24,558 nucleotides of DNA from a virus. Within the stretch, counting starts at the first letter, position 1. Every line of letters starts with the position of its first letter. The translations under genes were made by a program, and so were the position numbers. Below are positions 5,424 through 24,558 of the stretch, in pieces. The stretch spans positions 1 through 24,558 of IMG/VR virus record IMGVR_UViG_3300024999_000379; one strand, given 5' to 3'. The notes under the pieces were generated by a model, which saw only the letters and a list, made by a program, of their open reading frames with translations, was not told where the DNA came from and ran no database searches.

Positions 5424-5804
5424 ATGAATGTCGGAGAGAAAATTAGATACATCCGAGGTATACGCGGTTATTCGTTAACTAAACTTTCGGAGATAAGTAA
5501 TGTGTCCTTGCCCTACCTAAGCGAAATAGAGAATGGAGTAAAATATCCTTCAAATAAAGCCTTGACCAAGATTGCCCAAGCGTTAAAGGCTAATACCTGG
5601 TTCTTTCTTGATGATAACGCTCTTAGTTTTGAGGAAATGATAAAGCTATCTGATTATGAGCCACCAGAAGACATTGTGGAATTCTTTGCCACGCGAGAGA
5701 GTCTACCGTATGCCGTCCTTGCCCGAGATTTAGCAGCAGAACAGATTGACCCCACATTTCTCCGAGAACTCCTAGAATCAATCAAGAAGATGAAAATGAA
5801 ATAG
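5424..5804 (+). CDS. CI-like XRE repressor
   Basis: The 126-residue protein has an N-terminal helix-turn-helix (YSLTKLSEISNVSLPYLSEI, residues 16-35) of the SinR/Xre type and a helical C-terminal half that may dimerise. There is no LexA-like protease domain or Ser-Lys pair, so RecA-stimulated self-cleavage is unlikely; induction would need an antirepressor or another signal. The start is ATG 5424 after AAGGGGG. It diverges from the Cro-like gene and ends at a terminator (5820-5866), so it is probably a single-gene lysogeny unit. The rightward promoter is not certain; AT-rich -10-like boxes lie at about 5390-5410. Confidence 0.82.
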   Translation: MNVGEKIRYIRGIRGYSLTKLSEISNVSLPYLSEIENGVKYPSNKALTKIAQALKANTWFFLDDNALSFEEMIKLSDYEPPEDIVEFFATRESLPYAVLARDLAAEQIDPTFLRELLESIKKMKMK

Positions 5805-5819
5805 TATCAAGATTCGCAT

Positions 5820-5866
5820 TAGGTATTCGGCTATTAAATCATAATTAGTCGAATGCCTACCTTTTT
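5820..5866 (+). terminator. Rho-independent terminator after the CI-like gene
   Basis: TAGGTATTCG (5820-5829) pairs over ten positions, one G-U, with CGAATGCCTA (5850-5859); the loop itself can pair further (CTATTA with TAATTAG). CTTTTT follows at 5861-5866. Confidence 0.8.
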
Positions 5867-5871
5867 GTGCG

Positions 5872-5919
5872 TTAACGTGAGTATTAAAGAGATTATATAG
5901 GACAAAAGTCCTGTTATAT
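5872..5919 (+). promoter_or_regulatory. Weak rightward promoter with downstream dyad
   Basis: TTAACG (5872-5877), 16 bases, TATATA (5894-5899) could start the replicon transcript near 5906. The region overlaps a dyad: ATATAGGAC, four A, GTCCT, three bases, ATAT. A Rep or other regulator may bind here; the promoter boxes are only moderate. Confidence 0.35.
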
Positions 5920-5990
5920 ATTAGAGGATTGTGCAATTATTTGGAGAAATCATAAGATACACTTATTTGTGCAGAAAGGAAGAAAAGCGC

Positions 5991-6209
5991 GTGGTAATAG
6001 AAAAGGATTTAGGGGGGTATCTCAAGTATGTTATAGTGGACGATGATCTGGCTGTAGTTGATCCGAGGTATATGAAGGATTACGAATTATCGCTAAAACC
6101 AAGGGTTGGGAGCTTAAGGTTGCGTTATCCAAGGTTACTAAAGGTGGCGTTATATATATATTTTTCTGGTGTAGTAATGCATGTTTTACTAAAGACTATT
6201 GCAGGATAA
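5991..6209 (+). CDS. Small protein with C-terminal membrane segment
   Basis: The GTG at 5991 is preferred because AAAGGAAG lies eight to nine bases upstream; an earlier GTG at 5931 in the same frame has a poorly spaced AGAGG and would add 20 residues. The 72-residue product starts MVIEKDLGGYLKYVIVDDDL, continues as a mixed domain and ends in one hydrophobic segment (VALYIYFSGVVMHVLLKTI) consistent with a membrane anchor. It is the first gene of the replicon unit, upstream of the rep leader. It could be a membrane-associated replication accessory or copy-control protein, but no family is recognised. Confidence 0.6.
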   Translation: MVIEKDLGGYLKYVIVDDDLAVVDPRYMKDYELSLKPRVGSLRLRYPRLLKVALYIYFSGVVMHVLLKTIAG

Positions 6210-6243
6210 TAGAAATCTCCTGTCGAATTAGGAGGAAAAGGAT

Positions 6244-6288
6244 ATGGAAAAACCCTTCAGAATTCCCACCGCCAAAGTGATATTCTAA
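6244..6288 (+). CDS. 14-residue leader peptide of rep
   Basis: ATG 6244 follows a strong AGGAGG (6230-6235) at normal spacing and encodes MEKPFRIPTAKVIF, ending at TAA 6286-6288. It lies between the left arm of the inverted repeat and the rep gene and is completely covered by the predicted antisense RNA on the other strand. Such short frames precede rep in several antisense-controlled plasmids, where their translation alters mRNA folding. A ribosome starting here would cover the left arm. Protein function is unlikely; the act of translation is the probable role. Confidence 0.6.
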   Translation: MEKPFRIPTAKVIF

Positions 6289-6323
6289 AGGGCCACGCCA
6301 AGACAGGAATTTATTTATTTGTT
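6247..6323 (-). ncRNA. Predicted antisense RNA (countertranscript) of the rep leader
   Basis: A minus-strand transcript of about 77 bases would start near 6323 (promoter 6330-6358) and end at an intrinsic terminator. The stem is 11 base pairs, CCCTTTAGAAT with ATTCTGAAGGG (6292-6282 and 6263-6253), followed by TTTTT (6252-6248). One pair is G-U on this strand but a C-A mismatch on the opposite strand, so the hairpin is better on the antisense strand. An upper TCAC/GTGG helix closes a seven-base loop, TTTGGCG, containing UUGGCG, the U-turn (YUNR) loop known from ColIb-P9 Inc RNA and R1 CopA. It covers the leader peptide and the middle GACAGGA element. It should lower Rep synthesis and thus copy number. 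Confidence 0.72.
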
Positions 6324-6329
6324 ACTAGC

Positions 6330-6358
6330 ATTATAGAACAATTAAAAACTCTTGTCTA
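6330..6358 (-). promoter_or_regulatory. Promoter of the antisense RNA
   Basis: On the minus strand TAGACA (6358-6353), exactly 17 bases, then TATAAT (6335-6330). The boxes match consensus at five and six of six positions. It is stronger than the presumed sense promoter, as usual for copy-control antisense RNAs. Confidence 0.75.
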
Positions 6359-6394
6359 GATTTCCTTTAATCGAAATTTGACAGGAGATTTTTT
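6349..6394 (+). promoter_or_regulatory. Attenuator-like hairpin at the rep start
   Basis: CTCTTGTC (6349-6356) pairs with GACAGGAG (6380-6387), and AGATTTC (6358-6364) with GAAATTT (6373-6379), around an eight-base loop. TTTTTT follows (6389-6394). The hairpin hides the rep Shine-Dalgarno and resembles a terminator. The 5' arm can instead pair with the upstream GACAGGA (6302-6308), which lies inside the antisense target, giving an antiterminator alternative as in pT181 and pIP501. Confidence 0.6.
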
Positions 6395-6395
6395 G

Positions 6396-6797
6396 ATGCA
6401 AGAGAAGATGCCTAAAATGTCCAACGAGTTCCAATCCAACTTACTTATACACGATGGTCACTTAGTTGTTATTCAGGAGAGGCTAGTGAAGGTTCTGGGG
6501 CTTGATAAAGCCGTCTTCGTGCAGAAGTTACACTATTGGCTTAACACGGAGTCAGGGATAGTTATAGAGCGTAGGAGATGGGTTTATAATACCTACGAAC
6601 AATGGCGTAAGCAATCGCCTTGGTGGTCGGCTAGGACAATTAGAAGAATAGTGAAAGACCTAGAGTATTTAAAGGTTATAGTGAGCGTTGAACTTAACGC
6701 AGATAAGGGAGATCATACCAAGTGGTATACCATTGATTATGGAGTTTTAAATAAGCTATGGAGTGAGTATCTAGATGAAAATAGTGAGCATTTATAG
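6396..6797 (+). CDS. Winged-helix plasmid-type replication initiator (Rep)
   Basis: The ATG at 6396 is chosen because AGGAG (6383-6387) sits eight bases upstream; an upstream TTG in the frame would place that site inside the gene. The 133-residue protein reads as a winged helix: LGLDKAVFVQKLHYWL, then WVYNTYEQWRKQSPWWSART and IRRIVKDLEYLKVI, the layout of phage and plasmid initiators. It resembles the N-terminal half of the protein at 14335-15102. Its gene ends 30 bases before three iterons and sits behind an antisense-controlled leader, which points to origin binding. It is shorter than most initiators and no ATPase or nuclease is visible, so it would recruit host proteins. Confidence 0.68.
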   Translation: MQEKMPKMSNEFQSNLLIHDGHLVVIQERLVKVLGLDKAVFVQKLHYWLNTESGIVIERRRWVYNTYEQWRKQSPWWSARTIRRIVKDLEYLKVIVSVELNADKGDHTKWYTIDYGVLNKLWSEYLDENSEHL

Positions 6798-6809
6798 GCT
6801 ATTCGAGAC

Positions 6810-6978
6810 TTATCCACAGGGGGGAAGGTGCCTGTCCATTTTGGCCACACGCGCCTGTCCAGAATGACCATACGCGCCTGTCCATTTTGGACACATCTAC
6901 ATATACATAAACAACACGTCATAAATAACTTTACATATTATCCTATTAATAGGTTATCCACAGATAAGTTATCCACAG
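6810..6978. other. Predicted replication origin (iterons, AT-rich tract, DnaA boxes)
   Basis: Three perfect DnaA boxes TTATCCACAG lie at 6810-6819, 6954-6963 and 6969-6978, all in the same orientation. Between the first and second are three tandem 23-base iterons (6828-6896) and a 57-base AT-rich tract (about 6897-6953) that could melt, including the palindrome CCTATTAATAGG (6942-6953). This combination, next to a rep gene, is the standard architecture of an iteron plasmid origin. Confidence 0.85.
6828..6896. repeat. Three tandem 23-bp iterons
   Basis: Perfectly phased copies at 6828-6850, 6851-6873 and 6874-6896 share G(C/T)GCCTGTCCA at the left end and an A-C-A-C-like right end. Copies 1 and 3 are nearly identical; copy 2 differs in the middle. 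The CCTGTC core also occurs in the inverted repeat around the rep leader, suggesting that Rep binds both. Confidence 0.88.
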
Positions 6979-6993
6979 AAAGGAGATAGGTAC

Positions 6994-7521
6994 ATGTCCT
7001 ACGCATTCAAACAATGTGCAAAACTAGCCGGAATAGGAGAAAGCTTGGCTAGATTTTATAAGGATCGCTATGAAGAGTACTTCATCGTATCCTCGGGAGA
7101 GGGAAGGAACCGAAGATACTCTCAGCAAACCGTAGATACGCTTAAGTTCATTTCAAGATGCTATAACGACAAAAGGGATCACTCAGAGATAGTAGAAGCC
7201 TTAGACAGCCTCTATGGAGTCCCGATTGAGAACACAACAACGGAAATAATAGAAAACAGCAAAACAAAAGCAATGCAACAGGAAGATTTAGCGCATAGTC
7301 TGCACCTTATTTATGAAGAACTCCAAAGGCGAGGCAGTGTCATCCTTGAATTACAAGAAGAACTCGAAGGTATAAGGCGAACACTAGCAGAACAAGATAA
7401 GAGGGCGGAGGATAGGGCTAGGGACTCCGAGAACAGGGATGAAGAGATAATACACATGATGAGAGCAACGCAACAACAACGCAATAAACCATGGTGGAAA
7501 AGGTTGTTTAACTCGGAGTGA
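6994..7521 (+). CDS. MerR-like HTH plus coiled-coil protein, possible segregation factor
   Basis: The start is ATG 6994 after AAAGGAGAT, 15 bases past the last DnaA box. The 175-residue protein has a MerR-like winged helix (about residues 4-70, with FKQCAKLAGIGESLARFYKD and RRYSQQTVDTLKFISRCY), a long coiled coil (about 90-160) and the tail NKPWWKRLF, common in Gram-positive DUF3967-type proteins. HTH plus coiled coil is the plan of the single-protein partition factor Par of pSK1 and of RacA. Its place directly after the origin fits a role in segregation or origin binding, by analogy only. A terminator overlaps its stop codon. Confidence 0.72.
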   Translation: MSYAFKQCAKLAGIGESLARFYKDRYEEYFIVSSGEGRNRRYSQQTVDTLKFISRCYNDKRDHSEIVEALDSLYGVPIENTTTEIIENSKTKAMQQEDLAHSLHLIYEELQRRGSVILELQEELEGIRRTLAEQDKRAEDRARDSENRDEEIIHMMRATQQQRNKPWWKRLFNSE

Positions 7522-7539
7522 TATCCGGGTTATTTTTTT
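7510..7539 (+). terminator. Terminator overlapping the stop codon of the MerR-like gene
   Basis: AACTCGGA (7510-7517) pairs with TCCGGGTT (7524-7531), one G-U, around a six-base loop holding the TGA stop, followed by ATTTTTTT. It separates the MerR-like gene from the ATPase gene. Confidence 0.72.
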
Positions 7540-7619
7540 GCTCAAATTTGGCAGGAATAATGGACAGACAATGAGGCATATCTTCCACCATGAAGAGGTT
7601 CGCGAAGGGGGAATAAGCA

Positions 7620-9008
7620 ATGACCGTCAAACCTGATCCTATCTGGTTATTCTCAGACACTCTAGTCATGGTCGGACGTTTTGTTTTCAACCGTATCCAC
7701 TTAAATAAAGATTCTCACCCGAGTAAAATCATGCAAAACTGGAAGCGCAATGATGTCTGTGTAGAAACTAAGGAGCGTGGAAAGGACCATGTAACAAGGG
7801 AGTACCCCAAACTCATCAGCAAAAGTTGGAAAGGGCACAATCGAGTTTTTAAGTACAGCATACCTAATGGCCTGAAATATGAGAAACTTATCAAATCTAT
7901 CAACGATATTGTGTTTAGCCTAAAAAGTGAGGTTTTATTTAAAAGGTTGGAGAATGACCCAAAAGCTCATTTTAGCCTGACTGTTTTATCTGGTAAGCTT
8001 TTAGACCTTGTCAACTACACAAACGAAGCAGAGACTATGCCAAAGAAAGTAGGTTTATGGATACCGATCGGATGGTCGAGAAGAGGATTGGAGCAGGTTA
8101 ATTTAGCCGATAACTCGTCCAGCCATCTCCTTGTTGGCGGCTCAACGGGTGGAGGAAAGAGCATATTAGGTAGGTTAATCCTAGCATCCTTACACATACG
8201 GTACACGAGGGATGAGTGCAGGTTGTGGCTAGGGGACCTAAAACACGGGAATGGCACTGCATTATTAGGAGAAGATCCCCTATTGGTAGACAGGGTTATT
8301 ACAAGCCCCGGAGAAGTCGATGGAATGATGGATGATTTAAACGTAATCATCAGTGAACGGTATGCCCTATTCAAAAAGTATAAGTGCGATGACTTAGAAG
8401 CGTTTAATGAGGAATATCCATCTATGAAGTTACCTAGAATCATTGTTTATTTTGATGAGTATACAAAAATGGAAGGAAAGGAACTGAAACATGTAAGGGA
8501 TAAGGTTACAAAGGTTACGGGTGAATCTAGGGGTGCCGGTGTGAATTTCATAATCTCATGTCACCGTCCAACTGCAAACCTTGTTAGCGGAACTATGAAA
8601 AATAACTTTAGTGCCGTGGTAGCCTTTAGATGTAATCCCGTGTCAGCGCGCGTCTTATTGGGGGAAGACGAATGGGAAGGTTCCATGATGATAGATAGGG
8701 ATATCGAAGGTCGCGCATTATTTAAGTTCAAAGATGATGTATTGGTGCAAGTCCCATTCATTGACAATAAACTAATCAAGTCCATTATGTCAGCCTACCA
8801 AAAGCCACAAAGCGCACAAGCAGAGGTTGTGAACAAGATAACCAAGTCGCCTAAAAATATTATAAAGAAGGATGAAGATAAAAAAATAATGGATATAGAG
8901 CACTTATTACCCGAGCAATCAAGTGGACACCAACCGCAACATGCCAAATTATGTTTAGTCCAACCATTGGGCACGAATACCGAAGTGAGTAAGAAAGCGA
9001 GGGAGTGA
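7620..9008 (+). CDS. FtsK/SpoIIIE-type DNA translocase ATPase
   Basis: The 462-residue protein contains a P-loop GGSTGGGKS (residues 173-181), a Walker B strand IIVYFDEY (274-281) and the following SRGAGVNFIISCHRP segment, which matches the RAAGIHLILATQRP motif of FtsK/SpoIIIE/TcpA motors that pump double-stranded DNA. No transmembrane segment is evident, unlike FtsK or conjugative coupling proteins, and no gamma domain. The start is ATG 7620 after AAGGGGG. The gene is followed eight bases later by a replication-relaxation protein. This pair is found on Gram-positive plasmids and integrative elements; possible roles are plasmid maintenance or transfer. Terminal packaging is unlikely because this is not a terminase. 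Confidence 0.85.
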   Translation: MTVKPDPIWLFSDTLVMVGRFVFNRIHLNKDSHPSKIMQNWKRNDVCVETKERGKDHVTREYPKLISKSWKGHNRVFKYSIPNGLKYEKLIKSINDIVFSLKSEVLFKRLENDPKAHFSLTVLSGKLLDLVNYTNEAETMPKKVGLWIPIGWSRRGLEQVNLADNSSSHLLVGGSTGGGKSILGRLILASLHIRYTRDECRLWLGDLKHGNGTALLGEDPLLVDRVITSPGEVDGMMDDLNVIISERYALFKKYKCDDLEAFNEEYPSMKLPRIIVYFDEYTKMEGKELKHVRDKVTKVTGESRGAGVNFIISCHRPTANLVSGTMKNNFSAVVAFRCNPVSARVLLGEDEWEGSMMIDRDIEGRALFKFKDDVLVQVPFIDNKLIKSIMSAYQKPQSAQAEVVNKITKSPKNIIKKDEDKKIMDIEHLLPEQSSGHQPQHAKLCLVQPLGTNTEVSKKARE

Positions 9009-9015
9009 GAGAACA

Positions 9016-9684
9016 GTGGACGAGTCACTACAACGCTTCAGGGGGACAAACTGCGTGGCCTACGGTAAGAGCAGGGATGAACACATTACCAAGCTTATAC
9101 GGTCAGGTACAGCCTTTACGCGGCAACAGATTGAACAAGTTATATTCCCCAAACGCAAATCATCTAAGCGAATAGCCCAATATGCCTTAGCTAGACTTTG
9201 TAAGCAGGAAAGAATCAAGAAGTGGATTCGCGCGCCACAATTACCAACGATTTATTACTTAAGGAAACCTCGGCAGCTTGACCACGTTTTGCTTATCAAT
9301 GAAGTTTACTGCGCCTTACTCACTCAGAAAAAGTCCTGGCATGTGGTTGAATGGAAATGGTCCTACTCAATCCTTAATGGAATGGTATTCGCCGATGCTA
9401 TGGCTAATATCTATACCGAACCGGATCGCCAGGGCCGCAGGGTTATCTTTATTGAGGTTGAGCGAAATCCAAGCAAGAGGTTCAATAAACCCGAGCAATA
9501 TCAGAAGGTTTATGATGCCGATTGGGTGCAGGAAGAATGGTCTGTGATTAAAGATAGAACCGCCATATTCCCCACAATCCTTATCGTGACCGATGATGCT
9601 CCGGCCATTAAGAGTGAATTAAACTTCGTTGTAGCATCTATTGAAGATGTCAAGAAAGATGTTTACTCGATTTTAAGGAGGTAG
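9016..9684 (+). CDS. Replication-relaxation family protein
   Basis: The 222-residue protein begins with a winged helix (TRQQIEQVIFPKRKSSKRIA, then LARLCKQERIKKWI) and continues with a region containing FADAMANIY and VIFIEVERNPSKRF, an Asp...Glu-x-Glu layout resembling the Replic_Relax family and reminiscent of PD-(D/E)xK folds. Members are reported in plasmid replication and relaxation. GTG 9016 starts seven bases past the ATPase stop with GGGAG upstream, so the two are co-expressed. A DNA-processing partner of the ATPase is the natural inference; an enzymatic activity is not proven. Confidence 0.72.
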   Translation: MDESLQRFRGTNCVAYGKSRDEHITKLIRSGTAFTRQQIEQVIFPKRKSSKRIAQYALARLCKQERIKKWIRAPQLPTIYYLRKPRQLDHVLLINEVYCALLTQKKSWHVVEWKWSYSILNGMVFADAMANIYTEPDRQGRRVIFIEVERNPSKRFNKPEQYQKVYDADWVQEEWSVIKDRTAIFPTILIVTDDAPAIKSELNFVVASIEDVKKDVYSILRR

Positions 9685-13406: not shown

Positions 13407-14318
13407 TCAGGAAACTTCCTTCGTTCTCTTTTTATAATCAGGCCATGCTACAGATTTAAAAGTTGGCTTGAAGTTTACCCATCTTGCAAAATCTGCTTGA
13501 TGTGGATCCTTTTTATCGTATGGCATAACGAATGGATTAACACCTAAACTCTTTAACATTTCTACTCTATATAGATCCTCATCAACCGTTGTGTCGTACC
13601 CTATTAAAACATAGAACATCAATTTGTCCGGAACTATATACTTTGTTAAAATACTTATTCCCTCTAAAACGATCTGTTCTAAGTCCATTGAGTCCCAAGC
13701 GAATCTCAAATAGCCCTTTTTAGTCAACCTACTCCTTCTGAATAACCGAACCCTTGAGAGTCTTTTTGCCTTATCGTCATCAACTAGCCTAATATCTAAG
13801 CCTTGACTAAAATCTGTTCTTATTTTGTGCTTAATCACTTGTCCAACTATTAAATTAAAGTGATCTGGATCCCCTGTTAGGTTATTATCCATTATCATAA
13901 TGTGTTCTTGTCCTTGCCAGAACTGATGTATATCTGCTACTGGGTGCAGTCGCCCCTCCTTAATGGGAACGATACAGAAAGAGCAACTACGATTGCATCC
14001 GCGACTACAAAAACCAGAAGCGATATTCGTATTGTATAGCGAATAGTCAGGGCATAGCTTTTCTACTTCATCAGGTAGTTCAGTAGTTAGGTCAAGCCCA
14101 CTTCCACCTTGGATTATTTCGCAATCTGGATAATATAGGTACTTAGGGGAATCCTTGAAAACCTTTGAGGAATAGATTCTGTCAGGTTTATCCGACTTAA
14201 TATCAAACATTGGGTCGAACATCTTGACTGTATCTCCCAGACCTTTATGGTAATTGGAGAGTTTCATCAAGGCTAAGTTAGGCATTTTGCTATCGACATC
14301 GACTAATCCTATTTTCAA
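13407..14318 (-). CDS. Radical SAM enzyme with B12-binding-like N-terminus
   Basis: The 303-residue protein carries the iron-sulfur motif C108-NRS-C112-SF-C115, embedded in GFCSRGCNRSCSFCIVPIKE as in MiaB-like radical SAM enzymes. Residues 1-90 (KIGLVDVDSKMPNLALMKLS) resemble the Rossmann-like cobalamin-binding fold but lack DxHxxG, so cofactor binding is doubtful. Later segments (MIMDNNLTGDPDHFN, DFSQGLDIRLV, MFYVLIGYDTT) fit the barrel. Radical SAM enzymes use a reduced 4Fe-4S cluster to cleave SAM. Substrate unknown; modification of nucleic acid or a host metabolite is possible. The gene lies between small phage genes and a replication protein. Confidence 0.85.
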   Translation of the reverse strand: MKIGLVDVDSKMPNLALMKLSNYHKGLGDTVKMFDPMFDIKSDKPDRIYSSKVFKDSPKYLYYPDCEIIQGGSGLDLTTELPDEVEKLCPDYSLYNTNIASGFCSRGCNRSCSFCIVPIKEGRLHPVADIHQFWQGQEHIMIMDNNLTGDPDHFNLIVGQVIKHKIRTDFSQGLDIRLVDDDKAKRLSRVRLFRRSRLTKKGYLRFAWDSMDLEQIVLEGISILTKYIVPDKLMFYVLIGYDTTVDEDLYRVEMLKSLGVNPFVMPYDKKDPHQADFARWVNFKPTFKSVAWPDYKKRTKEVS

Positions 14319-19083: not shown

Positions 19084-19113
19084 AGAGCAGGAAATTAATC
19101 CTGCTCTTTTATT
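19084..19113 (+). terminator. Terminator of the moron
   Basis: AGAGCAGGA (19084-19092), loop AATTAA, TCCTGCTCT (19099-19107), nine perfect pairs, then TTTATTTTA. It overlaps the stop codon of the convergent 1611-residue gene and may act weakly in that direction too. Confidence 0.88.
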
Positions 19114-22100
19114 TTATGAAAAACTTTTTGGAATAAGTTTCTACCCGTTGCATTTCCTTTGCATCCTTAGCTGAATTAGCCTTCATGGTCAGTTGTAACA
19201 TCTGAGTCTTGATAGTGTTAATCTTGGATTCCTTGTCAGGATCAGAGCTAGCCTGAATTTTGTTTATCTGCTTAGTTCCCCTGCTTAACGCCGCGCTTAC
19301 GCCAACCATAGAGTTCTTAATATCTTCCTCTTTGGTTAACTTTTTAGCAGGTATCTTCTCAATGATGTTCTTGTCCACAGCGGCAGCAGAAAGTTTATCC
19401 AACTTATCATAAAAGTCTGTAGTCGCTTGATTACTGAACTTGGGGTCTGACGAGAATTGGGTTGACAGAACTTTGCCGGGACTTCCGCCCGGAACCAATA
19501 AAGGAGTTCCGAACTGACCGATTACCCCACTATACGACTTGACTAAATAGTCCAATTGCTTTGGAGATATTCCACTGGGTAGACCTGGAATGTCGGTGCT
19601 TAATTTTCCTATCTCTTTGGCAATTTGCGTGGTCTTATCATCGTACTGAAGATACTTTGAACGCTTATCCATAAGCATACCTTGTGGAACGATTGCCCGA
19701 TTAGCGAAATCGCGATTCGTTGCAATGTTCCAGGTCGCAGGAGAGAAGAAGTTGCTGTCGATTGGATTGGCAGGACTGAAATTAGTAGCTACAGTATTTC
19801 TGAAGCCTTTAAGGGGTTCCTTCTGTCCTTCTGCTGCCCTCATACTTCTCTCGAATAAGGACCCAAACAATACGCCCAACTCTCTTGATTTGGGGACTTT
19901 AATAAACGTTTTTCCACCTTCCTTCGGTATCAGAAAGTAGCTATCCTTGGTTCGATTATCCAACGCTTGATAATTAGGATTGTCCCTATTTATCATATAG
20001 AGAGCAACGTCAGGGACAGTAATGGCAACCCCTGCCTTAGCCATTGTCGCAAGTGCAACCTTGGGAGAGGAAAACCCCCTAAAGAAGCGGTCAAGCCCTT
20101 GGACCCCGGCGTTGGCGTACGGTGTAATTTTATCCACATTCTTTGTGATGTTTCCACCCCTAGAGAAATTGACAGTCACGTCGTTCGCCGAATAAAGAGC
20201 TTTTGTAATATCGTTTGTCTTATCCAGAACCCTATTAAACTCCGCCAAACGCGGTATGGTTTCCGTAAGAGTGTTAAATGATTCGATAGCCTTAATAGGT
20301 TTCATTGCAATTTTCTTAACCATGCTTCCTTTGTCCATCAATTCGGCAGCCGATTTTGTAACATCACCATTCGAAAAGAAGTTTCCGCCACCGCCGCCTA
20401 CCGCCTTGTACTTCTGTAAGCGCGGGCTATTGGTTAGAACGTCTTTTCCTGCACTAAGAAGACCTTTACCAAATTTAAATGGATTTGACTCCGACCCGTA
20501 CACGTAGGATGTAGGAATATCCCTGAAAATGTTTCTAATGGCAAATAATGGATTCTTTTGAGTTATCAGACTTTTGAATCCATTCGTCAATGTACTGAGA
20601 ATCGGAATATTACCTATCGACTTAGGTAATCCATTCATTGCGTCCAGAAGCATCTTGTCGTTGATCTTCAGGTAAACAGGTTTACCATCTTCAAGAACGG
20701 TGATGATGTTGTCCAAATTACTGAACATTCCATCCTTCGTAGGAATAACCTCAGCAAGTGGATTAAGCTTTTCAGGTGCCTCCCTGACTGAACTCAGCAA
20801 GCTTTGTCCAACTTCATTATATTTTGCCGTTCTAATTGTTCGGTCAACTAAATTCATAATGTTTTCAATCGGGTCCTTGATGTCGCGTTCTGAACCTGAC
20901 ATCTTGCGAATAGGCGTGCGTTGATTAGCGAACTTCTGCGAGACGTTATCAGAAATAGACTTTTCGAGTTCGCTGAAATCCCTTTGAGTCGGGAAATAAC
21001 TCTTATACGTTTTTCTTAATCCCGCGTAAATTTCCTTGTTAACGATACCCGTATCGACGCCCCATGTGTTCATGAAGGAATCCAACCATTTAACAATGCC
21101 ATCCCCAATAGCTTTATACTCAGGATTATCTCTCTCTGCAATTCTTACCGCATCCCTAGACATCTTAGATGTATAGTTAGCCTGAACTGGTGTAGGCTTC
21201 TTGTCGATAACCTTGTCATAAACTTGATTTCCATCCTTATTTTTGACTAAGAAACCTTGCTTATCCACCTTGGGGACTTGATGGCTAACCTCTGCAGCCC
21301 TATCAATATTATGGCGCTGTGACATATAGGTCCAGAACTTTTCTTCCTGCCCATTGGGGATAGCTTCCACAGTTGACTTTAAGGATTCCCCAACTTTATT
21401 ACCCCGCTTATCAACTAATGCTGTCAAGAAGTTGTGGTCAATAATACCGCTAACATTCTTCGTATTGCTTGCCAACTTTCCTATATCCGACCCAGTAACC
21501 TTGGCAGCATTAGCAATAGGTTGTTGAGTATTAACAATGGCTGTATAGAATTTATCCCAAGCGTTTTTAAAGTTTATTTTTTCCTTTTGCTTGCCGATAA
21601 TTATCTTACTTTGCGGTTCAGGAAGAATAGGATCTGCTGAAGCACCGAACATCTGCAAGTTCATTTTTAGCCTGACTTCCTTAGCCATCTCAGGTGGTAG
21701 CTCATCAATGCTAACCTTTCCCGACTTAATACCTTCCTGCAAAGATGGAATGTCGCCTTGCCATTTGGATTCCGACTTGACCTTATTCCAGAAGATATTC
21801 TCGTTAACTATTTTTCTAGAAGCCACCAACTTCGGATCCATTACAACCCCATCAGCCTTAGTGGTACCTAGTTTCTCCCTGATAGGGCTAACATCTTGAT
21901 AGCCTAATGCTAAGCCAAGCTCCCTTTGTTTTAATGGGGAATAATCATTATTAGTAATAGCTTTGGCCACCTTATTAAAGGATTCCGTATCCCTTGCCAC
22001 AAGCCCCACCATGTTACCCGTCTGTGTTCGAACTTTTCCAATAGGTAAGTTATGATCTTTTGCGAAAATTTCCATTTCAGGAGTTAGTGAATTTTCTAGA

Positions 22101-23944
22101 TAGGCAGGCTTTCCGTTTAATATTTGTGACATTTCCCATTGTTTTGAAGGTCCTAATATTTTTTCCCACTCAGCTATATGAGCTTGCCGACTCTCAGGAG
22201 TTGGGTATTTTTGATGAAATTCATCCATAGACTTTCTGTATGGATTTTGCTCAAGATACTGATTATAAGTTCCCCACTCTTCCTTATAACCCCTACGATT
22301 TATTCCTTTGTTATCACCAACTCTGGCAATCTCCAACTTACTAGGAACATCAACCCTCTTCGGAATCTCCCCACTCTTAACTGGTTTATTTACTACAGGT
22401 ATACCTTCCTTATTCGTCCATGTCAAAGGTTTCCCCCTGACTGAAGTAGGAATTGGAGCATCCATAACTTCCTGCGGAACCATACTCGTCCATGATTTTC
22501 TAGGTGCTAAATCAGGGATAATGCCTGCCGCCCTACCCATACTACGTTCCTGTGGAGCCATTACGTTCTTTGTCGATTGTGCCTTTTCCCATTTTGAAAT
22601 TAGTTCAGGAAGATTAACTCCCGTATTCTTGGCTATATCGTCATACGCTTGAGAAATGGTTGTGCCTTGCGGATACCCTGCCAATACGTCAGTATGTCCA
22701 ATGTAGTTTTGCGCGGCTTGTATGCCATCCTGAAGCTCACTCATAGCCCTTTGTTCGCTAGTAGTAAAGGAATACTTTCCTTGGTTTGGCAGGTCGTTAA
22801 ATAGTTTTTGTAATTCACCCTGCTTAGTATTGCGAACTGAATCAGGGATAGGATTAATAACGCTTGGGGTTTTATCAACCCCTGCATCATATTTTACCGC
22901 ACTCTTCCGTAATTCTTCGGATTTTATGTTTTCAAGAGTAGGAGGTTTATAAGCGTTCTGCACATCCTCAAGAGGATTAACCTTTACCCCATTTGCCTTA
23001 ATAGCCGCCGATAGCTTTGCTCCTTGCTCAAGAGTAAGTGCATCATTCGACTTAAGTGGTCCTAATCCAGTTTTGCGTTGGACATTGTAGGAGGGACGCA
23101 TAGGACCGTATGGTTCAGCAGGGACACCGAGAGGCTTGACTAATGACTTAACACCACTTATTCCTTCTCCAATCCCCTTAAATGCCCCTCTTGCTACTGC
23201 CCCACCTAATGCAATGGTCGGAACCTGTTTTTCCCTATTAATAAGGTCCTGCCAAGTTCCATTCTGCTGAATATTTTCTACGGGAGATACTACTCCAGAG
23301 TACGTCGCGGCATCCGTCAGCCCACCCTTGATAAAGCTAGGTATTTTAGAACCGACCTTATTAGCCGTCGAAGCAAGAGCAGGGGATAATTTACTCAATC
23401 CTTTACCCAAGACTCCCACAGCACCTTCGCCCGCCATCCACAATGGTATTTGAGGAACCTGTTCACCGAGCATGGCAGGAAATGAATTAACCGGATTTGC
23501 TTCTAAATAACTCTTACTAGCCTGTATTCCTGTTAATTGCTGTTTCCCTAAGTCAGCCATACCAGGTAACGGATTCTTTGTTAGCATATTGGCAATATCA
23601 GCATTTTGCTTAACTGCACCAGTTCTCGACAATCCATGAGCTAGCCCTAACCCAACCTGACCAGGCAAGCCTTTAATATCCCCTGCTTTTATCTGGTCCC
23701 ATGTTGAGGGTTGAGTAGGTTGAGCAATAGGCACACTCACAGCATGTGAAGTAGTCAAGTATTTTGAGAAGTCAGTGGAAGTGTCTTCGTGGAACTCAGG
23801 TTGCGTGGTGGCGAGGGAACTAGCTTGAACAGGAGGCTTCTCTAATCCAAAGAATGAATATGGGTCGCTCTCCTTCTGAGTAATTGTTTTTTTCTTCTCA
23901 TTCGGATCATCTATCCCAAAATAACTGTATGCACTCCCCATCAT
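19109..23944 (-). CDS. Large LPD38-type virion protein
   Basis: The 1611-residue protein starts at ATG 23944 after AAGGGGG. It begins with two copies of Y-S-x-F-G-(I/L)-(D/E) (YSYFGIDD at 7-14 and YSFFGLEK) and is Pro/Ser-rich up to about residue 200. The C-terminal third has PYANAGVQGLDRFFRGFSSP and FLIPKEGGKTFIKVP, as in large polyvalent proteins with the LPD38 domain, found in podovirus-like phages. Ala/Gly-rich hydrophobic helices (KVALATMAKAGVAITVP) could interact with membranes. With the adjacent transglycosylase it is likely an internal, ejected protein that helps genome entry. Very large for a single gene; no break seen. Confidence 0.72.
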   Translation of the reverse strand: MMGSAYSYFGIDDPNEKKKTITQKESDPYSFFGLEKPPVQASSLATTQPEFHEDTSTDFSKYLTTSHAVSVPIAQPTQPSTWDQIKAGDIKGLPGQVGLGLAHGLSRTGAVKQNADIANMLTKNPLPGMADLGKQQLTGIQASKSYLEANPVNSFPAMLGEQVPQIPLWMAGEGAVGVLGKGLSKLSPALASTANKVGSKIPSFIKGGLTDAATYSGVVSPVENIQQNGTWQDLINREKQVPTIALGGAVARGAFKGIGEGISGVKSLVKPLGVPAEPYGPMRPSYNVQRKTGLGPLKSNDALTLEQGAKLSAAIKANGVKVNPLEDVQNAYKPPTLENIKSEELRKSAVKYDAGVDKTPSVINPIPDSVRNTKQGELQKLFNDLPNQGKYSFTTSEQRAMSELQDGIQAAQNYIGHTDVLAGYPQGTTISQAYDDIAKNTGVNLPELISKWEKAQSTKNVMAPQERSMGRAAGIIPDLAPRKSWTSMVPQEVMDAPIPTSVRGKPLTWTNKEGIPVVNKPVKSGEIPKRVDVPSKLEIARVGDNKGINRRGYKEEWGTYNQYLEQNPYRKSMDEFHQKYPTPESRQAHIAEWEKILGPSKQWEMSQILNGKPAYLENSLTPEMEIFAKDHNLPIGKVRTQTGNMVGLVARDTESFNKVAKAITNNDYSPLKQRELGLALGYQDVSPIREKLGTTKADGVVMDPKLVASRKIVNENIFWNKVKSESKWQGDIPSLQEGIKSGKVSIDELPPEMAKEVRLKMNLQMFGASADPILPEPQSKIIIGKQKEKINFKNAWDKFYTAIVNTQQPIANAAKVTGSDIGKLASNTKNVSGIIDHNFLTALVDKRGNKVGESLKSTVEAIPNGQEEKFWTYMSQRHNIDRAAEVSHQVPKVDKQGFLVKNKDGNQVYDKVIDKKPTPVQANYTSKMSRDAVRIAERDNPEYKAIGDGIVKWLDSFMNTWGVDTGIVNKEIYAGLRKTYKSYFPTQRDFSELEKSISDNVSQKFANQRTPIRKMSGSERDIKDPIENIMNLVDRTIRTAKYNEVGQSLLSSVREAPEKLNPLAEVIPTKDGMFSNLDNIITVLEDGKPVYLKINDKMLLDAMNGLPKSIGNIPILSTLTNGFKSLITQKNPLFAIRNIFRDIPTSYVYGSESNPFKFGKGLLSAGKDVLTNSPRLQKYKAVGGGGGNFFSNGDVTKSAAELMDKGSMVKKIAMKPIKAIESFNTLTETIPRLAEFNRVLDKTNDITKALYSANDVTVNFSRGGNITKNVDKITPYANAGVQGLDRFFRGFSSPKVALATMAKAGVAITVPDVALYMINRDNPNYQALDNRTKDSYFLIPKEGGKTFIKVPKSRELGVLFGSLFERSMRAAEGQKEPLKGFRNTVATNFSPANPIDSNFFSPATWNIATNRDFANRAIVPQGMLMDKRSKYLQYDDKTTQIAKEIGKLSTDIPGLPSGISPKQLDYLVKSYSGVIGQFGTPLLVPGGSPGKVLSTQFSSDPKFSNQATTDFYDKLDKLSAAAVDKNIIEKIPAKKLTKEEDIKNSMVGVSAALSRGTKQINKIQASSDPDKESKINTIKTQMLQLTMKANSAKDAKEMQRVETYSKKFFIK

Positions 23945-23953
23945 TCCACCCCC

Positions 23954-24558
23954 TTATTCCGGTTCATATCCAGGGTACCTTCTCTTTGTGATGTAGTCAT
24001 GTAAGCTTTGTATATCAGCGCCCTTATCGGCAAACTTAGAGGCATTAGCATTAATGAAGTTTAAGATTTCTGCTTCACCCTTGCCTTGCGAATCCATGCT
24101 ATTAATAATCGCAATGGCTTGATTCTGAGCTATCTTGGCATCTTGCGCTGTAATGGGAGTTGCTTTATCTGACTTAACCTTGCTTCCCTCGCTCACGGTG
24201 TAGTTCTTGGCCTTATCCAATACTCTTTGCAGATATTCATTAGTGCCCTCCCCGTAGCCGAGGATACCACCCTCTAGCGAGCCCGCCTGCTTTGCCCTAA
24301 TCGCTAGATACTTGGCCGCCGCATAGATACTTGATTTAGCATCAGACCTATTTGTTAACCCTTGTTCATCTGCTGTTGTCTTTAAGAATTGACCTAATCC
24401 CGTTGCTCCTGATGTTTTATTTACAGCGTTAGGGTTCCAGCTAGACTCTGCCTCTAGTAACCCTGCAAGAATAGCAGGAGGTATTCCGTTTTTAGCAGCA
24501 GCATCATTAACGAAATTGGCATATTCGAGAGGCATACTACCACCACTAATAACTCCAC
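23954..24558 (-). CDS. Lytic transglycosylase (SLT domain), 5' end possibly outside
   Basis: The SLT goose-lysozyme-like motif is visible: LLEAESSWNPNAV with the catalytic Glu (residue 30 from ATG 24535), then SGATGLGQF and AAKYL. These enzymes cleave the glycan strand of peptidoglycan; in virions they open the wall for DNA entry. ATG 24535 has only a weak GGTGG upstream, and the frame stays open to the window edge (GVISGGS), so the real start may lie outside. The C-terminal 100 residues are helical. It precedes the LPD38-type gene by nine bases, forming a pair typical of ejection complexes. Confidence 0.78.
   Translation of the reverse strand, partial: GVISGGSMPLEYANFVNDAAAKNGIPPAILAGLLEAESSWNPNAVNKTSGATGLGQFLKTTADEQGLTNRSDAKSSIYAAAKYLAIRAKQAGSLEGGILGYGEGTNEYLQRVLDKAKNYTVSEGSKVKSDKATPITAQDAKIAQNQAIAIINSMDSQGKGEAEILNFINANASKFADKGADIQSLHDYITKRRYPGYEPE

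Follow-up and report, generated by a model that had tools for sequence, protein, structure and literature searches.

The window, by which we mean the whole 24,558-nucleotide stretch analyzed here, is a 24.6-kb virus fragment that carries lysis and internal virion-type genes together with a replication gene, rep, and its leader. The features of this region, with their strands, are:

5424 to 5804, plus: Xre-type repressor gene (PF01381, E 7e-10), upstream of the leader
6215 to 6229, plus: arm 0, near-invariant CCTGTCGAATTA, a 15-nt complement of arm C (6375 to 6389)
6252 to 6292, plus: target hairpin I of the sense leader, with loop CGCCAAA
6301 to 6308, plus: arm A (pre-emptor), predicted to pair with arm B at 6350 to 6357 and lying inside the antisense-covered stretch
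6323 to 6247, minus: predicted antisense RNA of about 77 nt, whose 3′ hairpin (6292 to 6252) and U-run form its own terminator
6358 to 6330, minus: putative antisense promoter TAGACA-17-TATAAT (-35-like 6358 to 6353, -10-like 6335 to 6330; score 11/12)
6349 to 6394, plus: putative attenuator, a 15-bp terminator hairpin and U-run immediately upstream of rep (arm B 6349 to 6364, arm C 6373 to 6387, U-run 6388 to 6394)
6396 to 6797, plus: rep, encoding a 133-aa winged-helix initiator (DnaD-like / replication initiation protein; phrog_6493, E 1.8e-28; phrog_428, E 2e-15)
6830 to 6895, plus: three 20-nt iterons at 23-bp spacing (GCCTGTCCATTTTGGCCACA), downstream of rep
6954 to 6977, plus: two TTATCCACA DnaA boxes beside the iterons
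6994 to 7521, plus: gene for a MerR-like HTH and coiled-coil protein (PF13411, E 1.5e-4)
7620 to 9684, plus: genes of this module for an FtsK-like ATPase and a replication-relaxation protein (PF01580, E 9e-12; PF13814, E 2.2e-9)

Judging from these sequences, the iteron and DnaA-box region is probably the origin, and the Xre-type gene is a candidate Cop-like regulator; ORFs similar to it occur in G002 and G010. The MerR-like product is a candidate maintenance or partition protein, and in one relative (L057) a ParA gene (PF13614, E 2.5e-56) directly follows rep in its place. The MerR-like protein ends in a PWWKRLF C-terminus, and we presume that it may be a single-protein partition system resembling pSK1 Par. 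Elsewhere in the window, the minus-strand region 19109 to 24535 holds a 1611-aa LPD38 protein of internal virion or ejection type beside a transglycosylase, LPD38 being common to relative G002, and 13407 to 14318 (minus) gives a weak, below-cutoff radical SAM match, an odd cargo for a phage.

On the minus strand of the leader, a sequence-only reading had picked out the TAGACA-17-TATAAT promoter and a 77-base RNA with an 11-pair terminator stem and a seven-base UUUGGCG loop, and both are borne out. The promoter is the top-scoring sigma-70-like site within 5500 to 8000, and the 77-nt RNA is predicted to fold (-21.9 kcal/mol) into an 11-bp stem (13 bp if two basal G-U pairs are counted), an inner CAC/GUG stem and the UUUGGCG loop, followed by GGGUUUUUC. 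When we scanned for a promoter of at least 10/12 with a 10-bp, GC-containing hairpin and U-run 45 to 110 nt on, the combination occurred once in the whole window, at this site, and not at all in 60 dinucleotide shuffles. A search of Rfam 15 gave no described RNA family above gathering score.

We gathered relatives from IMG/VR by Rep searches, followed by loop and arm 0 sequence patterns, and aligned 18 distinct leaders including that of the window (alignment A2). The Rep searches returned relatives with the same initiator (67 to 88% identical), and the loop and arm 0 patterns returned further leaders ahead of other genes. These leaders are akin, the majority having been recovered from a single group of metagenomes, and counts across them are therefore not independent. 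The layout is the same in all 18, and each has an antisense promoter-like site and terminator hairpin. Between arms A and B, the only invariant columns are 6330, 6334 and 6335, which are positions -7, -11 and -12 of the antisense -10 box, and 6340, a spacer base.

In the window's stem, as had been seen from the letters alone, the sole weak pair is G-U for the antisense RNA but C-A for the sense strand, and the suggestion that the structure is tuned for the antisense strand gains support from the relatives. Across the leaders, the outer stem of this hairpin has 21 wobbles that are valid only in the antisense and none valid only in the sense strand; leaving out the outermost pairs, the counts are about 14 and 0, the sense counterpart being C-A. 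Several helix positions switch between C-G and U-A across many sequences. In alignment A3, both sides of the antisense hairpin are changed in 29 cells, against 10.3 in shuffled alignments, with 0 of 500 shuffles reaching 29, and for the antisense hairpin and the sense terminator alike the covariation score lies above that of every one of the 500 shuffles and of every slid control; since the aligned rows are kin, these comparisons are not to be read as probabilities.

The plus strand carries a terminator and an antiterminator (6301 to 6394), which the sequence-only reading had missed. In the window the B:C terminator has a predicted energy of -16.1 kcal/mol (z -4.96; z -3.4 to -6.7 in five relatives), and the A:B hairpin, a pairing also seen in relatives, has -15.4 kcal/mol (z -4.46). 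Both use arm B, and in the window their energies are nearly balanced. RNAalifold, run on the full leader alignment, recovers the antisense hairpin and the terminator helix unprompted. By strand-neutral scoring, wobbles in the terminator helix favor the sense strand 36 to 3, and the bias of A:B is mild (17 to 10), weaker than in the other helices. With the antisense-covered stretch blocked, B:C is predicted in most leaders, the exceptions being the window, L002, L086 and L110, where the lowest-energy fold pairs arm C with arm 0 and not with arm B; by ungapped score, B:C is weak in L003 and L009. Comparative sequence analysis thus demonstrates the predicted antisense promoter and terminator hairpin, the putative sense terminator and its A:B alternative. 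The sequence has the parts expected of a countertranscript-driven attenuator of the pT181/pIP501 kind: an antisense promoter and self-terminating RNA within the rep leader, a terminator with U-run ahead of rep, and, in the stretch that the antisense RNA covers, a pre-emptor that can pair instead with the terminator's 5′ arm.

No other part of the leader is as conserved as arm 0, which is near-invariant in all leaders except L009 and its twin L010. Pairing of arm 0 with arm C, as modeled, would hide the rep Shine-Dalgarno sequence, and this is not explained by a simple on/off attenuator model; arm 0 may belong to the switch itself, act as an operator or form an inactivating fold at a late stage. 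We considered arm 0 as an iteron-like Rep operator (CCTGTCGAATTAGG compared with iteron CCTGTCCATTTTGG), but such iterons were found only in the window and L002 and arm 0 is near-invariant almost everywhere, so the likeness is probably due to chance. A leader peptide running through arm 0 (CTG TCG AAT TAG) was dropped, as its start codons are not conserved. A small ORF (5931 to 6209; 92 aa in the window, with a hydrophobic C-terminus and no family match) ends just before arm 0; similar reading frames exist in most relatives and could influence the leader by translation. We recognised no sense promoter.

Taken as a whole, these sequence features make it quite probable, in our view, that the replication initiator belongs to a phage-plasmid and is controlled by transcription attenuation driven by an antisense RNA. 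We propose that the minus-strand RNA (6323 to 6247) would use its U-rich YUNR loop to form a kissing contact with hairpin I as the rep leader emerges, and would then pair along the leader until arm A is covered. Arm B, freed from arm A, would pair with arm C to form an intrinsic terminator just before rep, and because transcription would end ahead of the gene, Rep would not be made. At few copies there would be little antisense RNA, A:B would form, the terminator would fail and rep would be transcribed, allowing Rep to start replication at the putative iteron/DnaA-box origin downstream. The loop sequence would determine which elements cross-regulate. In this scheme we infer that both strands are transcribed, that attenuation takes place in vivo, and that copy number and incompatibility are affected.

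The pT181 RNAI/repC attenuator of Staphylococcus is alike in having a countertranscript against the rep leader, a pre-emptor arm, and a terminator with a ribosome-binding site immediately before the start codon; there, the antisense RNA induces the terminator that contains this site and the pre-emptor opposes it (PMC5703833). It differs in that the pT181 initiator (Rep_trans, rolling circle) is unrelated, and in that the phage leader has a single antisense hairpin with a 5′ tail, the extra conserved arm 0 and a phage as carrier. The similarly arranged pSK41 acts by translational control (PMC5703833), and in the window the rep Shine-Dalgarno sequence lies within arm C, so the antisense RNA could instead cause B:C to fold and hide this sequence without any termination. 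We regard this as unlikely, given that a U-run follows the terminator stem in 18/18 leaders and is invariant at 6389 to 6392 and 6394, which would be needless for sequestration alone. Termination and Shine-Dalgarno sequestration may also act together, as noted for pT181.

The leader-bearing contigs are podovirus-like, and a large terminase (TerL) is found in 7 of 13. In the 65,756-bp relative G010, a 127-bp repeat at the ends and a terminase gene spanning the junction show that the molecule is circular or circularly permuted. A tyrosine integrase is absent from 13/15 records and a serine recombinase from all 15, the tyrosine integrase accompanying the leader in L009 and L010. Virion genes together with plasmid replication or partition genes and no integration genes are found for the group, not for the fragment alone; the window's own phage probably lives as a plasmid. 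The most diverged leader, L018 (G006) and G007, which is without arm 0, sits in contigs with a tyrosine integrase; the RNA module may therefore not depend on a strictly plasmid way of life. In another relative (L156; G002 62414 to 66041), the terminase region is broken by an intein-like or homing segment (ending ...GGLIVHNS). The closest portal proteins, at 23 to 31% identity, are those of Paenibacillus podoviruses API480 and SV21 and of Paenibacillus phage-like plasmids, which makes the phylum Bacillota the likely host; of the tailed phage of Bacillota originally proposed, the tailed phage stands and the phylum is likely from these portal relatives.

Premature termination upstream of a replication gene is also familiar from the phage-plasmid P4, whose CI RNA is a small RNA that is cut from the same strand, rather than being a countertranscript, and serves immunity. 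The RNA described here could likewise act on an immunity or lytic switch, with rep as a lytic replication gene and no role in copy control; the initiators are phage-type O/DnaD-like proteins, and Cro/CI-like and Rha-like regulators lie near the leader region of the window. Against this stand the iterons and DnaA boxes, the ParA gene after rep in L057, the FtsK-like and replication-relaxation genes, the 13/15 records lacking an integrase, and what look, on inspection of the ORF list, like separate DnaB-like and SSB-like replication genes elsewhere in complete relatives, and we give the immunity reading little chance.

An antisense RNA against a phage rep leader had been put forward from the outset, and as a kind of element it holds by sequence; the prototype chosen for it does not. 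The UUGGCG loop is known from ColIb-P9 Inc RNA and R1 CopA, each of which folds as one hairpin serving also as its terminator, and CopA controls translation via a leader peptide. The resemblance is limited to UUGGCG in one loop allele and to the single self-terminating hairpin: among the leaders there are six loop types, of which UUGGCG is only one, and in place of a conserved leader peptide, pseudoknot or loop hexamer there is a conserved intrinsic terminator. The YUNR motif, by comparison, is present in every loop, being a loose motif that is frequent in U-rich loops. Such U-turns enhance loop-loop RNA pairing in systems of this type (PMC4485353). An IncI/IncB-type mechanism, in which the antisense RNA would block translation of a leader peptide and a pseudoknot needed for rep translation, could draw on the window's UUGGCG loop and on a 14-codon ORF with a Shine-Dalgarno sequence that spans the hairpin (6244 to 6288), but it is highly improbable and has failed on comparative sequence grounds, as an ORF starts at the hairpin in only 4/18 leaders, the loop has no 6-nt pseudoknot partner downstream in 15/18 (the window included), and the loop hexamer is not conserved.

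Returning to the attenuator, the leader family reaches beyond a single initiator. Four initiator types stand behind the leader (DnaD-like, Phage_rep_O-like and two HTH_36 types), and leaders 93 to 96% identical precede unlike initiators in L002/L086, L005/L041 and L041/L046; conversely, a single initiator type can stand behind different loop types. A covariance model recovers every member and finds no other convincing site in 0.5 Mb. Distant Rep homologues in other phages are without the leader or antisense RNA, two Paenibacillus phage-like plasmids are without the antisense RNA, and neither a Rep-pattern scan of 84,980 species genomes nor a nucleotide search of phage and plasmid records gave a relative. 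At the level of sequence comparison, strand specificity, conservation and reuse with different rep genes are thus evident for this predicted module. More tentatively, and somewhat short of probable, the leader could be a portable control cassette that moves among phage-plasmids with different initiators, with its loop alleles, of which six were seen, defining incompatibility or superinfection groups at the RNA level that would settle which phages may share a cell.

Antisense attenuators are a classic plasmid copy-counting device. The RNAIII systems of the Inc18 plasmids pIP501, pAMbeta1 and pSM19035 share with this locus an Xre-type gene upstream, a long leader with the antisense promoter inside it, inverted repeats and poly-T before rep, and an origin downstream of rep (PMC4981023, PMC5703833). 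They differ in that their initiator is unrelated, no RepR/RepE-type protein being found among the DnaD-like, Phage_rep_O-like and HTH_36 initiators here, in that the antisense RNA is 77 nt here versus 136 nt, and in that the Xre gene is only a candidate CopR. Tailed phages that persist as plasmids under RNA-level control include the extrachromosomal mycobacteriophages RedRock and Alma, which have RNA-based origins and no Rep protein; there, however, a noncoding RNA is required for initiation and is not an antisense attenuator (PMC7157519). A search mostly of literature outside subscription found no antisense attenuator controlling Rep of a tailed phage. The mechanism is of a known kind. What is new is the setting, together with the unrelated initiators, module swapping and loop alleles.

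If the attenuator is real, the copy number and compatibility of these prophage-plasmids would be set by a system legible in the sequence, and from the loop types one could predict which phages exclude one another. The swapping of one leader among four initiator types would mean that copy control is a unit evolving independently of the initiator, and the leader family would offer natural alternative attenuator loops for comparison.
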